Below are positions 3,957 through 34,844 of a stretch of DNA of 34,844 nt, in pieces. The position numbers and the translations under genes are program-made. Every line of letters begins with the position of its first letter. The stretch's first letter is position 1. The notes under the pieces are model-generated. The model did no database searches. It was not told where the DNA came from and saw nothing but the letters and a program-made list of their open reading frames with translations. The stretch is from a virus. The stretch covers positions 1 through 34,844 of the IMG/VR virus record IMGVR_UViG_3300035126_000624; one strand, given 5' to 3'.

Positions 3957-4349
3957 CTAATTTTTGATCGATTCAATCTGTTTAACAACTTCGTCAATCG
4001 TCGATACTTTCGCGAGCCGCTGAATTAGACCATCGGCCCCCTGAAAGATCAAACAAGGCGTGCCGACCGCTTCAACCATCGGCTTTAAATGCAGCTTGTC
4101 GAGGGCCGCATCATCGGCATTGATGAAGCTGATTTTCTGGCCCCGGCTGGTGGCTGCGGCCATGATCTTTTCATCGCCGATCCAGTCAATCGACCTGGGG
4201 CCGTAAACCAGCGTCAGCCATGCCGGTTTGATCGGCTCTGGCGTTGTCTGGGTGGCTTCGCCAAGCGTGCCAATCTTCTGACTTCCAAAGTACAAAGAAA
4301 GGCACGCGGCAAGCGACAAGATGGCCTTAGTTAGGCAGTCCGAAGGCAC
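3957..4349 (-). CDS. Small thioredoxin-fold-like protein with N-terminal hydrophobic segment
   Basis: A 130-aa protein from a GTG at 4349; a TTG at 4319 with AAGG six bases upstream is an alternative start and would begin at LSLAACLSLYFG, a signal or membrane segment. The body resembles a thioredoxin fold: a strand-helix-strand pattern followed by VGTPCLIFQGADGLIQRL, where the Thr-Pro would be the cis-proline. There is no CxxC, so it is not a working disulfide oxidoreductase. It overlaps the upstream 64-aa gene by 23 bp. Function is unknown; fold assignment is tentative. Confidence 0.5.
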   Translation of the reverse strand: MPSDCLTKAILSLAACLSLYFGSQKIGTLGEATQTTPEPIKPAWLTLVYGPRSIDWIGDEKIMAAATSRGQKISFINADDAALDKLHLKPMVEAVGTPCLIFQGADGLIQRLAKVSTIDEVVKQIESIKN

Positions 4350-4521
4350 TTTTTAAGGTGAGCAAAAGCTCGCCCTGTCCCTCCTTTTTGGCTGCTGCAA
4401 TCGCGGCATCAGTTTCGATCTTCACCGCATCAACGGCAGCCTGCTTTTCGGCTGCAAATTTGCTTGTTACCTCGGCAACCAGCGTATCAAGCTGGGTCTG
4501 GATCTCTGGGTCAAGAGCCAT
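4327..4521 (-). CDS. Small Ala/Lys/Glu-rich coiled-coil protein
   Basis: A 64-aa protein, ATG at 4521 overlapping the stop of the upstream gene as TAATG. Nearly the whole sequence is a predicted helix with heptad-like spacing (LDTLVAEVTSKFAAEKQAAV). The overlap on both sides and consistent spacing support a real gene. No family recognised; its neighbours suggest a structural or lysis-region helper. Confidence 0.55.
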   Translation of the reverse strand: MALDPEIQTQLDTLVAEVTSKFAAEKQAAVDAVKIETDAAIAAAKKEGQGELLLTLKSAFGLPN

Positions 4522-5010: not shown

Positions 5011-5220
5011 TTAGACCTTTATTTCTTTGCCTGACTTGAGAAATGAAATCGCTTGGCTAATGACGATTGCCAGCACCACGCCCGCCGGGGTCGAGGCTTC
5101 CACAATGGCAGGCAGGTCGGCTTCCACCACGATCAGAATTGCCAGCAGGCCAGCAAGGGCGGCCCGCTTGACGGTCTTGCTGATCTGCTGCTTATTGATC
5201 TGCCCGACAATGTCTGTCAT
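5011..5220 (-). CDS. Small membrane protein, holin-like
   Basis: A 69-aa protein with two hydrophobic segments (AALAGLLAILIVVEADL and AGVVLAIVISQAISFL) between a polar N-terminus and a short basic tail (KSGKEIKV). This is a plausible holin topology. Its ATG overlaps the stop of the upstream microprotein as ATGA. A holin role is inferred from size and neighbours. Confidence 0.55.
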   Translation of the reverse strand: MTDIVGQINKQQISKTVKRAALAGLLAILIVVEADLPAIVEASTPAGVVLAIVISQAISFLKSGKEIKV

Positions 5221-5339
5221 TTTTGGCCCCCCAGCTTGATGCCGCGTTTCTTCAGTTCGGCCACAATCTGCTCGAATGTCAGGCCCTGAGCCTTCAACTG
5301 TTCGACCAGTTCGCGAGGTGATTGGCTTGGTTCGCTCAC
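5217..5339 (-). CDS. 40-aa HTH-like microprotein, copy 1
   Basis: GTG start at 5339 overlapping the previous stop (GTGA), stop at 5217 overlapping the next start (ATGA), so it sits tightly coupled between two genes. It is clearly paralogous to the ORF at 7807-7926: both contain ELxxQLKAQG, then TFEQI, then EL-K/Q-KRGIKLGGQK and end at the same residue. The sequence resembles the helix-turn-helix of large serine recombinases (LRAQGLSYREIAEELNARG style), but is far too short for a recombinase. Function unknown; a small nucleic-acid- or protein-binding adaptor is possible. Confidence 0.7.
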   Translation of the reverse strand: MSEPSQSPRELVEQLKAQGLTFEQIVAELKKRGIKLGGQK

Positions 5340-5923
5340 AGGATCATGCCGCCAAATGTGCCGTTAGAAGTGCCGTTACCTGTTGGCGGTGGCTGAATAC
5401 CGCCCCAAAGCGGCGGGAATTGTGCCAGAAATTGGGCAACTGTCGGCAGCGTTGCGGTGCCTGCCTGCAAGTCTAGGGCAAGTTTTGTGTGAGCATTCCA
5501 GACAAGATCATAATAGGCGATGGCTTCCCGGCCTTCCTGCGACCAAACAGGGTTAGCGGAACTGGCCACCGCACGAGCCGAAACGTGGTTTTCATAGCGT
5601 TTTCGGGCAAATGTGGCGTTTAGGAATTGAGTGATCGCCGCCCCGATTTCTTCCATGCGGGCCGTTGCGAATGCCAGTTGCTCCGCCGGTGTCATCTGCA
5701 CGATTGACCATGATTGATTCACCATCATGCCGACCAGCGTAAGCGTTTCAATCAGCCGATGCGTTTGTTCGTTGTATGACGGTTTCAAGGCTGGCTTGAT
5801 CGGATACCAGCCATAGCGGGCCAGTTCTGATGGTGGCAACAGATGGAAGTTGCTCACATTGCCGAACGTTATGGGCAGGCTTCTCGGTGGCTGTGGAACG
5901 CCGTTGATGACTTGGCAATACAT
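5336..5923 (-). CDS. Tail fibre-associated or fibre-assembly-like protein
   Basis: A 195-aa protein. The N-terminus (MYCQVINGVPQPPRSLP, LARYGWYPIKPALKPSYN) resembles tail-fibre assembly or DUF4376-type phage proteins, which follow fibre genes and help folding or attach as a cap. The middle is helical with MTPAEQLAF; the C-terminus is Pro/Gly/Asn-rich (GIQPPPTGNGTSNGTF). It follows the LamG protein with a 3-bp gap, consistent with a fibre-assembly job. Assignment is by pattern only. Confidence 0.5.
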   Translation of the reverse strand: MYCQVINGVPQPPRSLPITFGNVSNFHLLPPSELARYGWYPIKPALKPSYNEQTHRLIETLTLVGMMVNQSWSIVQMTPAEQLAFATARMEEIGAAITQFLNATFARKRYENHVSARAVASSANPVWSQEGREAIAYYDLVWNAHTKLALDLQAGTATLPTVAQFLAQFPPLWGGIQPPPTGNGTSNGTFGGMIL

Positions 5924-7807: not shown

Positions 7808-7926
7808 TATTTCTGGCCTCCCAGTTTAATGCCGCGTTTTTGCAGTTCGATCATGATCTGCTCAAAAGTCATGCCCTGAGCCTTTAGCTGATCGATCAGT
7901 TCTTTTGTCGTTTGCGGTTGACTCAT
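7807..7926 (-). CDS. 39-aa HTH-like microprotein, copy 2
   Basis: ATG at 7926 with GGTGA upstream, stop TAA overlapping the next start (TAATG). Paralogue of 5217-5339: the two share QLKAQG, TFEQI and KRGIKLGGQK with conservative changes between and near-identical length. Both copies are embedded in the adhesin/lysis-side gene block, 2.5 kb apart, which argues for a real gene family rather than chance ORFs. Function unknown. Confidence 0.7.
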   Translation of the reverse strand: MSQPQTTKELIDQLKAQGMTFEQIMIELQKRGIKLGGQK

Positions 7927-15549: not shown

Positions 15550-15806
15550 TAAATCGCCCTCCCTGATTCCAATATCAAAGCCACCGGGAACACCCAGCCG
15601 CGTGTGGTGATTGACTTATCGCGGTTGATGAGAAAATTGTTCGCTCTGCCTATTTTCTGGCACTCAATCAGCCTGGCCGCTTTCAGTTCCTCGATTACAC
15701 GCCTAACGGTGGTCGATGTCTTATCGATCCTGACCGCCAGTTCTTCGATAGTTGCCATCGGGTCTCTGTTGATTTCACAGAGAACTTGAACATACAAGCT
15801 GATCAC
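15549..15806 (-). CDS. Winged helix-turn-helix DNA-binding protein
   Basis: An 85-aa protein with GTG start at 15806 (GTGA overlap). The pattern LCEINRDPMATIEELAVRIDKTSTTVRRVIEEL-AARLIE is a MarR/ArsR-like winged helix: helix 2 ATIEELAVRI, recognition helix TSTTVRRVIEELKAARL, then a wing. Probably a transcription regulator acting in middle or late phage expression. Targets cannot be seen. Confidence 0.7.
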   Translation of the reverse strand: MISLYVQVLCEINRDPMATIEELAVRIDKTSTTVRRVIEELKAARLIECQKIGRANNFLINRDKSITTRGWVFPVALILESGRAI

Positions 15807-16042
15807 GCCTCGACCCCCGTTTCTTTCGGGTGAATACTCTTGGCTTCCTTGATTAAATAAATCCGCTCAAAGTCGGCAGGCTTGATCGTGAAATATGCGT
15901 TATTGCGGAATAGAACGTCGATTGACGCAATGTTATACGCTTTGCCTTTGGCGTCGCGTTTGTATTCAATTTTTACAACCGTACCGACCATGACTGATTC
16001 TTTGGCCCGGATTGTGTCGCCGACTTGAAAGCGATTGATCAT
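15803..16042 (-). CDS. Small SH3/KOW-like beta protein, 79 aa
   Basis: ATG 16042 overlaps the CsrA stop. The sequence FQVGDTIRAKESVMVGTVVKIEY followed by YNIASIDVLFRNNAYFTIKPADFERI alternates strands with GD and VG turns as in KOW/SH3-like barrels that bind nucleic acids or proteins. It is coupled to csrA and may act with it. Fold call is tentative. Confidence 0.5.
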   Translation of the reverse strand: MINRFQVGDTIRAKESVMVGTVVKIEYKRDAKGKAYNIASIDVLFRNNAYFTIKPADFERIYLIKEAKSIHPKETGVEA

Positions 16043-16239
16043 GACACGCCATCCTTTTCTGCGTTTTTCAGCTTCTTTTCCCTGATTTCTGGCCTGTTTA
16101 TCTGTACCTTGTCAGATGCACGTATGCCGAGCTTGACCTTATCCCGCCTGATTTCGGCGATGATGACTTCGATCATTTCGCCATCGACATCGATGATAAC
16201 TGTCTCAAGCTGTTTTCGTGTGAGTACCAATAAACCCAT
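16039..16239 (-). CDS. csrA: Phage-encoded CsrA/RsmA-type RNA-binding regulator
   Basis: A 66-aa homologue of carbon storage regulator. CsrA dimers bind GGA in hairpin loops at ribosome sites and block or enhance translation. Start is ATG 16239 behind GGAGGT; the longer ORF to 16296 starts in the leader. Family landmarks: GLLVLTRK at the first strand (the R of LTRK is an RNA contact), a second strand IIDVDGEMIEVIIAEI, RDKVKLGI-AS-KVQINRPEIRE, with the second RNA-contact Arg in NRPEI. The C-terminal tail is basic. Encoded in the middle of the accessory block, coupled to the 79-aa protein. Confidence 0.85.
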   Translation of the reverse strand: MGLLVLTRKQLETVIIDVDGEMIEVIIAEIRRDKVKLGIRASDKVQINRPEIREKKLKNAEKDGVS

Positions 16240-16422
16240 CGTTGCAACCTCCATGATGATGAAATGACGGCCAGGCTGACCGTCCTTGTGTTCCATGCCT
16301 GCCGCCTGAAAGTTCAGCCTGATAACATCTCAGGCAGCCTTCCACCGCCCCGGCGTCGGACTGTGACGACCGAGGAAACCACCTGCCGAGAGTCGAACCC
16401 GGCTCATGCCGATAGGTGATCA
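16240..16422 (-). promoter_or_regulatory. Structured leader upstream of csrA
   Basis: 183 bp without a convincing gene, between the HNH-type gene and csrA. Minus-strand structures: (1) a tRNA acceptor/T-arm-like hairpin (16380-16418) with a TTCGA loop and a CACCT/AGGTG closing stem; (2) a hairpin GCCTGA/TCAGGC (arms 16335-16330 and 16322-16317) whose left arm can alternatively pair with 16309-16304; (3) several GGA triplets, one in GGAGG at the csrA ribosome site. This fits autoregulation by CsrA or a riboswitch-like switch between two folds. The ORF at 16205-16423 in another frame is probably a shadow. Confidence 0.45.
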
Positions 16423-16758
16423 TTAGTCTTTACTCATAATGTGATCCCAATAATCCCATTCTGCTTTTGCTTCCTGCGGGTCATGGTAATATTGACCACT
16501 TGGCCCACGGTGAAACGATTTCTGACAAGTCCAGCAAACCCAAAGCATTTCTTCTGGTCGCTCGTTACCCAGTACTGATTCTGTATGTTTTCCATAAGGG
16601 TAAATGTCTCTTTCATAAATTAAATGATGCAAAGAAAAACCAAGCGACCAATGATACTTGCAGTGACATTTTTCGCACTTGCCATTTGCACGTTTTAATA
16701 CTTCAGTCTTAGTTTTTTGTGGAATTGGCAGTCGCCCTTCTATGCGATAAAAAGACAT
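16423..16758 (-). CDS. HNH-like zinc-binding endonuclease candidate
   Basis: A 111-aa protein with CEKCH near residue 28-32, LHHLIYERD (probable HH of an HNH motif), and a second CxxC (CWTC) followed by H. This is the spacing of small HNH endonucleases with a structural zinc. It starts with TAATG overlap. It is too far from the terminase to be a packaging HNH by position alone; it might be a homing or host-degrading nuclease. Confidence 0.65.
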   Translation of the reverse strand: MSFYRIEGRLPIPQKTKTEVLKRANGKCEKCHCKYHWSLGFSLHHLIYERDIYPYGKHTESVLGNERPEEMLWVCWTCQKSFHRGPSGQYYHDPQEAKAEWDYWDHIMSKD

Positions 16759-32873: not shown

Positions 32874-33412
32874 GGCATTGTTCGTTTCACGGCATCAGCA
32901 AACAGTTTAAATATCTTCTTTTCATTCATCTTGAATGCTGGCGTCAGATACGGCCTTTCGGGCATTTGTGCCGACCCTAGCTCTTGCACTCTGGCATATT
33001 TAAGCTGTTGGGCGGGTCCGATTTTGGCTTCTTTTTTGGCCTTGGAATATTCATGAATGATCGACCGTTGCAGAGTGCCGGTCTGTTTATTTGGCGGGCT
33101 TCCCGGCATTGATGCCTGAACCCACCTATGAAGCGGCTCGCCGTACCAATAGACCCGCTGGGCCTTCAGTGTTTTCATGCTGATGCCCATATCGGCGGGC
33201 TTGGTTTTCCGCTCTGGCACGCCATCGCCTTTAAATATTGGCGAGTTGTAACCTGCTTTGGCCGGGAATGATTTGCCGGTATTATTCAAAAGTTTTTTGG
33301 CGTCGCGTTCTACCATTAACGCGCCTTGAATGGCCGCAGATTCAAGGCTTCGTTCAAGGTTCTGAATAAATTTTTGCCCTTGAAAATTGTATTTAATTTT
33401 CTTGCGTATCAT
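32870..33412 (-). CDS. HK97 gp10-like head-tail protein
   Basis: A 180-aa protein from ATG 33412, which overlaps the connector stop (ATGA); the longer ORF start at 33442 lies inside the connector gene. Features: N-terminal helix with QGALMVERDAKKLL, a central GSPPNKQTGTLQRSI turn, and YARVQELGSAQMPERPYLTPAF, all typical of gp10 family. It acts in neck or tail completion. Confidence 0.8.
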   Translation of the reverse strand: MIRKKIKYNFQGQKFIQNLERSLESAAIQGALMVERDAKKLLNNTGKSFPAKAGYNSPIFKGDGVPERKTKPADMGISMKTLKAQRVYWYGEPLHRWVQASMPGSPPNKQTGTLQRSIIHEYSKAKKEAKIGPAQQLKYARVQELGSAQMPERPYLTPAFKMNEKKIFKLFADAVKRTMP

Positions 33413-33744
33413 CCGACCGCCACAATCTTGTAAGGTGCCCACAACATCTGAATGGCGACCGGGATGCTGCCCGCTTCAGGCGTGGCATAATTGACGTCAT
33501 AATCGCCGATCTTCTCTTTGATAATCGTTCCGCCTGCCGGGTTTGACGTGGCCATCCATTCGGCACACATGGCGATTCCTGCTTTTACGCTATCAGTCAA
33601 TTCGGCACCTGTAAAAGTGCGGCCTGTGAACTGGTCAAGCATGGTCGATGCTGCTGTTAATAGCACGGTGGCACGCATGGCGGATACACTGCCAAGCGTT
33701 TCAGCAAATAGGGCCGCTTCATTCTGTGTGATGTATGCAGGCAT
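33409..33744 (-). CDS. Head-tail connector, second copy from terminal redundancy
   Basis: Identical 111-aa product to 118-453; here its downstream neighbours (gp10-like and so on) are complete. This copy belongs to the same gene, seen twice because the contig passes its own start. Confidence 0.85.
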   Translation of the reverse strand: MPAYITQNEAALFAETLGSVSAMRATVLLTAASTMLDQFTGRTFTGAELTDSVKAGIAMCAEWMATSNPAGGTIIKEKIGDYDVNYATPEAGSIPVAIQMLWAPYKIVAVG

Positions 33745-33784
33745 AGTACAGTAGTCTTATTTCAGGTGGATAAACAAAGTAAGG

Positions 33785-33824
33785 TAAAAACCGCCCCCGG
33801 CTGCCGAAGCATCTGACAACCGGG
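33785..33824 (-). terminator. Second copy of the capsid-connector stem-loop
   Basis: Identical to 494-533: 10-bp stem, 9-nt loop and a T5 run (minus strand). Confidence 0.5.
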
Positions 33825-33850
33825 AACGGCGAGGGGCACGCCCTCAAAAC

Positions 33851-34844
33851 TTAGACAAGTTCCTGAATAATCTGGAAGGCTCGCGGATCACGCACAGCAC
33901 CGCCAAAGCGGTATTTGACCGCGATACGGACGCGGTTCGCATAGGCCATCGATACTTCGTCAATCGAGACCGTGAAGCCCTGCCGCAAGAGCAAGATATA
34001 TTCGTTGAAGTCACCCAGCACAATCGACTTAGGCGTTGATGCACCGGAAGCCGGCACGAAGCCGTTGAAATAGATCGGCTGCCCCATCAGTGCCGGGGTG
34101 ATGCCCTGCGTGTAACCGGAATCAGCAGAGCCTAGGAAAAGGCTTCTGTTGGTCGTATCATTCAAGGCAACCAGCTTGCCATGAGTGGCACGACGCATCA
34201 CCCACGAAAGGTTGGTGGCATACTGGTCAGCAAGGGCATAGAAACCGTCAATCACCTTGCTTGCGACAAGCGTGTTATTACTGCCGGTCTTGGTGATGCC
34301 AACTGAACTGTTAGAAATCACGCCTTCCGCTTCGGTCGATGCGGTCACACCGTTAATGACCTGATTGTCAACCACAGCCGCAAAAGCCTTTGAGGCCTCT
34401 GTCTGGATGTAGTTGGAAATTCCGGCCACGTCAGCGAAGAAGTCAGCCGAAACATCGGTGAACATCGTGCCGGTATTTACCGGGATCGTCAACTGAGTGA
34501 ACGGGCCGGTATCGATCTTTGAAAGCGTGGTATTGACTGTTTCACCCATGAATGGCCGAAAAGTCGTGCCATACTGTGGTGACGTGGTGATATTGTTCGT
34601 GTTTGAATCACGAGGGAATGTCACCTGATTGACATTTGTATTGATGACACGACATATGCGAGTCATCACAGGGGCAACAGTTCGCCCAACAACCACATCA
34701 AAGCGGAAATCAGGCGTGACGGTATTCGTACCGTTGGTGGTCGTGCCGAGTGTCATGTCCTTTGAAAAAGGCATATAAAACTCATTGGAAGGCAGGCCGA
34801 AGTCGCCGCCCTTGCCGTACACCTCAAGCATATTCCGCAGGCTT
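33851..34844 (-). CDS. Major capsid protein, 3' portion cut by window edge, second allele
   Basis: The C-terminal 330 or so codons of the capsid gene, cut at the window end. Compared with 560-1553, the protein differs by one residue, but the DNA differs at about 76 sites, all between 34118 and the end. It therefore represents a different allele or strain. Confidence 0.85.
   Translation of the reverse strand, partial: SLRNMLEVYGKGGDFGLPSNEFYMPFSKDMTLGTTTNGTNTVTPDFRFDVVVGRTVAPVMTRICRVINTNVNQVTFPRDSNTNNITTSPQYGTTFRPFMGETVNTTLSKIDTGPFTQLTIPVNTGTMFTDVSADFFADVAGISNYIQTEASKAFAAVVDNQVINGVTASTEAEGVISNSSVGITKTGSNNTLVASKVIDGFYALADQYATNLSWVMRRATHGKLVALNDTTNRSLFLGSADSGYTQGITPALMGQPIYFNGFVPASGASTPKSIVLGDFNEYILLLRQGFTVSIDEVSMAYANRVRIAVKYRFGGAVRDPRAFQIIQELV

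Follow-up and report, generated by a model that had tools for sequence, protein, structure and literature searches.

Does the long stretch of DNA in front of a phage csrA gene act as a regulatory RNA, and does it control the amount of the CsrA protein encoded behind it? This question is raised by a locus on the minus strand of a virus record of 34,844 bases (the whole stretch that was analysed, hereafter called the window). For this locus the initial annotation had proposed a CsrA protein retaining its RNA-contact Arg residues, preceded by a 183-bp leader with a T-arm-like hairpin, several GGA triplets and an arm, GCCTGA, that could switch between two pairing partners.

The window carries genes for head, portal, terminase, tail, helicase, methylase and integrase proteins, and its terminase has at most 45% identity to an Acetobacter phage terminase. 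A repeat search found positions 1-300 to be identical to 33292-33591, and the ORFs at the two ends agree over about 1.5 kb; because its ends repeat, the window is probably a complete phage genome of ~33.3 kb. The terminal redundancy of ~1.5 kb (1-1553 versus 33292-34844) contains at least one base difference (NDSTN versus NDTTN in the major head protein), which possibly reflects two variants that were assembled together. A direct repeat of 94 bp, 82% identical, was also seen at 5219-5312 and 7809-7902, with a spacing of 2.6 kb.

To place the locus among its relatives, IMG/VR was scanned for the csrA gene, which gave 13 contigs with 71-100% identity; a wider scan added a fragment only. The leader comparison comprised 11 distinct leaders, i.e. 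that of the window and those of ten relatives, while L002 (a repeat of the window), L013 (a repeat of L011) and L014 (cut off) stood outside this set. The features of the locus are listed in Table 1.

Table 1. Features of the csrA locus, in window coordinates
Feature	Positions	Strand	Description	Basis
79-aa ORF	15803..16042	-	ATGA overlap with the csrA stop codon; follows csrA in every locus examined	No Pfam/PHROG match
csrA	16039..16239	-	66 aa, CsrA/RsmA-family RNA-binding protein; ATG at 16239-16237	
csrA leader (intercistronic region)	16240..16422	-	Noncoding, 183 nt, 4-5 stem-loops	Fold z, relatives in IMG/VR, indels
3' domain	16244..16305	-	GCGGC/GUUGC and CAUGG/UCAUG helices around H5 (16284-16266); Shine-Dalgarno (SD) GGAGG (16252-16248) at internal loop	Near-invariance, MFE fold
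ANGGA site 3	16250..16254	-	AUGGA, overlaps the SD; in all 11 leaders	
ANGGA site 2	16283..16287	-	AAGGA in the window; N is A, C or G among relatives, A and GGA constant	
ANGGA site 1	16292..16296	-	AUGGA; in all 11 leaders	
Second TCAGGC partner of GCCTGA	16304..16309	-	Pairing kept in 4/11 leaders only	
H3	16308..16343	-	GCCTGA/TCAGGC helix, invariant loop GAUGUUA, outer GGAAG/CUUUC helix	Comparison
H2	16348..16375	-	10-bp helix, one bulged U, invariant loop ACAGUCC	Covariation
H1, allele A	16379..16419	-	T-arm-like GCCGGG-TTCGACT-CTCGGC, closed by CACCT/AGGTG	Window sequence
HNH-endonuclease-like gene	16423..16758	-	Occupies the variable slot preceding the leader	PHROG HNH families, E ~1e-4

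With regard to the protein, the 66-aa ORF matched the PF02599 profile with 46.1 bits, above the curated cut-off of 27, and CsrA chains in the PDB were also matched (e.g. 5dmb, E = 1.2e-7). Judged by its sequence, it is a genuine CsrA-family protein for which RNA binding is predicted. L6, R8 (the Arg of LTR) and R49 (the Arg of NR) were invariant across all aligned relatives; the RNA-contact Arg residues were thus confirmed and their loss was not seen. These three residues correspond to L4, R6 and R44 in E. coli CsrA, of which L4 and R44 are critical (PMC7652899). The dN/dS values between csrA alleles (0.06-0.28) indicate purifying selection on the protein. The phage protein accordingly shares the profile fold family, the LTR motif and the critical residues with the CsrA/RsmA/RsmE family (PF02599; E. 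coli CsrA, P. fluorescens RsmE). It is nevertheless distant from the studied CsrAs, from which it differs by an insert of about three residues in the beta1-beta2 region (PDB-chain alignments) and by a charged C-terminal tail, KKLKxAEKDGVS. The CsrA family is characterised by a domain-swapped beta dimer with a C-terminal helix; an AlphaFold2 model of the monomer gave strands and a C-terminal helix at low confidence (pLDDT 60), too poor a model for a fold search. The nearest homologues in the annotated phage collection were 34-40% identical, and no csrA relatives were found on plasmids at the search sensitivity used. The 79-aa ORF that follows is likely to be translationally coupled to csrA.

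The leader was found as annotated and folds better than its shuffled versions (z = -2.44; 3/200 shuffles equally good). H1, H2, H3 and the 3' domain follow each other in this order in all 11 leaders. Since the alleles vary by indels of 1-4 nt that break every frame, and no reading frame is kept among relatives, the leader is noncoding, as judged from the alleles compared. In the RNAalifold structure 396/396 cells were paired, a count that comes from the same alignment as the structure itself and from leaders that are not independent sequences, their hairpin alleles being swapped as blocks by recombination. The covariation score was matched by 0/500 shuffles, and slid controls failed; covariation is limited to H2 and one H3 pair. 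The RNA nature of the leader is well supported, and we regard it as very probable. Among the Rfam 15 covariance models none reached gathering, with chance-level matches only (at most 17 bits at E up to 10), so that Rfam has no family for this leader; searches of open-access papers gave no description of a conserved multi-hairpin leader on a phage csrA. Relatives of the leader were not found among annotated phages, and when searched for away from csrA in IMG/VR it appeared only in the same phage group, save for one unrelated pattern match (L049). An exact genome-wide search with the leader core gave 10 matches, which had no flanking or structural similarity and were discarded as chance matches. 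No promoter or terminator match was found near the leader, which agrees with a leader that is transcribed by read-through.

The strongest evidence for a structured leader comes from H2. Its pairing was 10/10 in each of the 11 leaders (110/110 cells), several pairs being altered on both sides, but fell to 6-7 of 10 when the arms were swapped between the two main allele groups. Between the window and the L008 allele the 3' arm differs at five positions and the 5' arm at six; if the five changes in the 3' arm were drawn at random, only 1 of 243 outcomes would retain 10/10 pairing. The stem (20 positions) diverges by 0.255 differences/site, a rate that resembles that of the csrA third codon positions (0.288), and the loop and flanking linkers by 0.000. 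All non-Watson-Crick cells in H2 were G.U (14, against 0 A.C) when read on the csrA-sense strand, which argues that the selected molecule is the RNA of the csrA transcript and not a DNA palindrome. Taken together, these patterns indicate that the H2 helix is selected as RNA. The covariance that the initial annotation had asked for among related phages is therefore seen for H2 and for one pair of H3; H1 is replaced by another hairpin in 5/11 leaders.

In the window, the H1 hairpin at 16403-16385 has a 7-nt loop, TTCGACT, and matches the tRNA T-arm consensus G-TTCRAYY-C. This allele A occurs in 6/11 leaders, the others (L003, L007, L009, L010 and L011) having an unrelated hairpin B with the loop TCTGAAATTATGG. 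The T-arm-like hairpin is hence present and fits the consensus, but it is not conserved, and its T-arm likeness is dispensable. ARAGORN found neither a tRNA nor a tmRNA in the leader; a tRNA-like or tmRNA-like domain was ruled out by this empty result together with the replacement of H1. The 5' arm of hairpin A (ACCTATCG, 16410-16418) is also complementary to the csrA start (CGATGGGT, 16234-16241), a pairing used in the extended-leader MFE structure; it is probably not required, because hairpin-B leaders do without it. The GCCTGA/TCAGGC hairpin of H3 is retained among the leaders; one of its pairs is altered on both sides (T-A to C-G), and allele b has one A.C mismatch. GCCTGA (16335-16330) can pair with TCAGGC at either 16322-16317 or 16309-16304, and when the window segment is folded alone the second pairing looks strong, which explains the earlier impression of a switch. 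Both pairings are thus possible in the window, but the second partner is lost in 7/11 leaders, and the two-partner switch was rejected as a conserved feature.

The 3' domain diverges by only 0.032 differences/site, versus 0.288 for csrA third positions, and its MFE fold was identical in the window, L005, L009 and L010, with fold energies of z = -1.0 to -2.1. It should be underlined that this fold is based on energy, because there is too little variation for covariation; the sole varying pair lies in H5, where U-G, U-A and C-G occur at one position. The predicted fold places the SD at an internal loop. A competing fold, in which GGCGGCAGGC pairs with GCCUGGCCGUC, lies within 0.3-3.5 kcal/mol either way. 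Four GGA triplets are present in the leader, as had been pointed out, but their number is what chance predicts (3.97 expected); three of them form ANGGA sites, which are mildly enriched (3 observed versus 0.82 expected, p ~0.04) and conserved in 11/11 leaders. The SD-proximal site is partly accounted for by the SD itself. Hairpin loops are the preferred context of CsrA sites, and none of the ANGGA sites lies in a predicted hairpin loop, all being in linkers or partly paired. In terms of sequence, the layout with one site on the SD fits the pattern of a CsrA-repressed leader, though the loop context is absent.

The region upstream of the leader is a slot of changing gene content. An HNH gene fills it in the window and in L008, but most relatives carry something else there: L005 encodes a DUF6551 protein, L006 and L012 each have a 269-aa gene, L004 has a small gene of 74 aa, and in L007, L010 and L011 the slot holds two unknown genes. 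Across linkers of ~10 nt, the alleles of H1 (A/B), H2 (a/b) and H3 (a/b) were found in all four combinations for each hairpin pair among the 11 leaders; for H2/H3 these are aa (window), ab (L006), bb (L003) and ba (L009). The hairpins thus reassort between phages beside the variable slot, and the changing slot genes and hairpin combinations together indicate that the leader and csrA are the fixed edge of an exchange site.

Related elements were also observed elsewhere on these contigs. A 5'-half fragment of hairpin A (ACCACCTATCGGCATGA) lies at 5059-5082 of L008, after a small 76-aa ORF and upstream of another gene, which suggests that the fragment travels with cargo genes. In L010, and also in L007, L011 and L013, a set of hairpins forms a family in which the loop is constant (TCTGAAATTAYGG or TCTGAAACGATTGG) and the 10-bp stems differ. 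Copies in L010 are located at 4168-4205, 4265-4295, 4374-4411, 5721-5758 and 5826-5863, and the last copy of the array is hairpin H1B in the leader before csrA. Pairing is 10/10 in six copies of the array and averages 7.6 after arm swaps, and the non-Watson-Crick pairs are all G.U on the csrA-sense strand. Tracts of 6-13 head-to-tail GGYNN pentamers alternate with these hairpins around two genes (197 and 165 aa, no Pfam match), at 4226-4446 and 5764-5828 in L010, at 2407-2681 and 3934-3983 in L007, and likewise in L011 and L013. An exact-pattern scan of IMG/VR found the combined pattern of GGYNN tracts and hairpins in the L010 contig only.

What, then, might the leader do? The protein family, the noncoding leader, the selection of H2 as RNA and the conserved 3' domain with its ANGGA sites are established. 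In the reading we prefer, the 183 nt before csrA would be a conserved cis-acting structured RNA within the csrA transcript, in which the upstream hairpins H1-H3 may shield or insulate the intercistronic region. The near-invariant 3' domain would hold the SD at an internal loop, with a short helix on either side and the three ANGGA sites around it, one of them on the SD. CsrA, either that of the phage or perhaps that of the host, would bridge an upstream ANGGA and the one at the SD and so repress csrA translation, a negative feedback that would cap the dose of a global host regulator. SD occlusion, CsrA binding, feedback and an effect on host translation are steps that we infer. We give a probability of roughly 0.5 to a clade-specific cis-acting RNA that controls csrA translation, most likely via CsrA feedback. 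The proposal of a structured leader controlling its own csrA thus keeps the H2 covariation, the near-invariant 3' domain and the conserved ANGGA sites in its favour, but loses the two-partner switch and the T-arm hairpin.

A structured cis-acting RNA could also have a role unrelated to CsrA, as an insulator between cistrons, an element for processing or stability, or a switch that responds to a ligand or to temperature. The two 3' folds (the SD-occluding GCGGC/GUUGC and CAUGG/UCAUG helices with H5, and GGCGGCAGGC with GCCUGGCCGUC) would then be OFF and ON states, and the near-invariance of all segments of both folds, with energies only 0.3-3.5 kcal/mol apart, is consistent with this. So is the fact that the H2 loop ACAGUCC shows no variation, nor do the linkers GGUGG and GCGGUGGAAG, yet together they hold only 1/4 GGA; they may contact a partner other than CsrA. 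However, near-degenerate alternative folds are commonplace in 70-nt RNAs, invariant pairs allow no covariation test, and there is no similarity to Rfam riboswitches; we consider such a role rather unlikely. It is more doubtful still that the leader is mainly a recombination boundary, whose linkers and hairpins serve as landing points for cargo exchange upstream of csrA, with the hairpins as passengers. The pairwise combinations of H1, H2 and H3 alleles in the 11 leaders fit this, as do the differing slot genes, the fact that in most relatives upstream homology runs out at the leader, 140-188 nt ahead of csrA, and the reappearance of hairpin-A and hairpin-B fragments at other borders. Such a boundary leaves the complementarity of the H2 arms and the restriction of its non-Watson-Crick pairs to G.U on the csrA-sense strand unexplained, however, and csrA is equally mosaic, exchange being a general property of these phages.

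A trans-acting decoy RNA of the CsrB/RsmZ type, sequestering host CsrA, would account for the presence of several conserved GGA/ANGGA sites within a compact RNA of multiple hairpins, but the GGA density is at chance, the GGAs lie outside hairpin loops, and a promoter- or terminator-like site for a separate RNA is lacking, which makes a decoy improbable. Coding by the leader, with accidental hairpins, seems highly improbable: a 72-aa ORF (16423-16205) and an N-terminal extension of csrA from 16296 are both open in the window, and L008 has an open frame of 127 aa that spans the leader and continues into csrA. Against this, neither Pfam nor PHROG gave a match for the 72-aa ORF, and indels contradict a coding role, since length differences of 1 nt among the alleles of H2 and H3, and of 1-4 nt in the 3' linker and at the H3-3' junction, shift the frame between relatives.

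Phage csrA genes as such are already known, having been counted in 30/2517 phage genomes by Sobrero and Valverde (PMC7366521), and Burkholderia phage JC1 carries one as gp47 (PMC9144972); the window likewise has a small csrA on a tailed phage. The part that appears new is the conserved multi-hairpin leader on a phage csrA. In Vibrio phage VvAW1, csrA overlaps the preceding gene and has no leader, in contrast to the 183-nt leader of the window. E. coli CsrA binds ANGGA and represses its own translation, and the E. coli csrA leader also has CsrA-type sites, one on the SD (PMC7652899); the leader of the window differs in its conserved, covarying hairpins, whose loops lack GGA, and autoregulation here is putative. 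The plasmid regulator RsmQ is a mobile CsrA/RsmA homologue that redirects host translation (PMC9928087). Its effects were measured, whereas the csrA of the window is likened to it by analogy only, and by this analogy it is plausible that host translation is reprogrammed by the phage CsrA.

As a tentative and, at present, unlikely extension, the leaders may represent a new class of cis-regulatory RNA in phages, modular in build, in which hairpin cassettes that keep their loops constant (ACAGUCC, GAUGUUA and UCUGAAAUUAYGG) while their stems change are interchangeable, reassort between phages and, read by the phage CsrA or another factor, set the csrA dose in infection. Loop-constant, stem-variable hairpins provide a clean case of selected RNA structure in phages whose recombination acts over very short distances. 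A conserved leader with an ANGGA on the ribosome-binding site makes dose limitation of CsrA by mobile elements testable, for which a single short RNA and a 66-aa protein suffice. The preservation of the hairpins despite their changing letters suggests that the virus may control the amount of CsrA.
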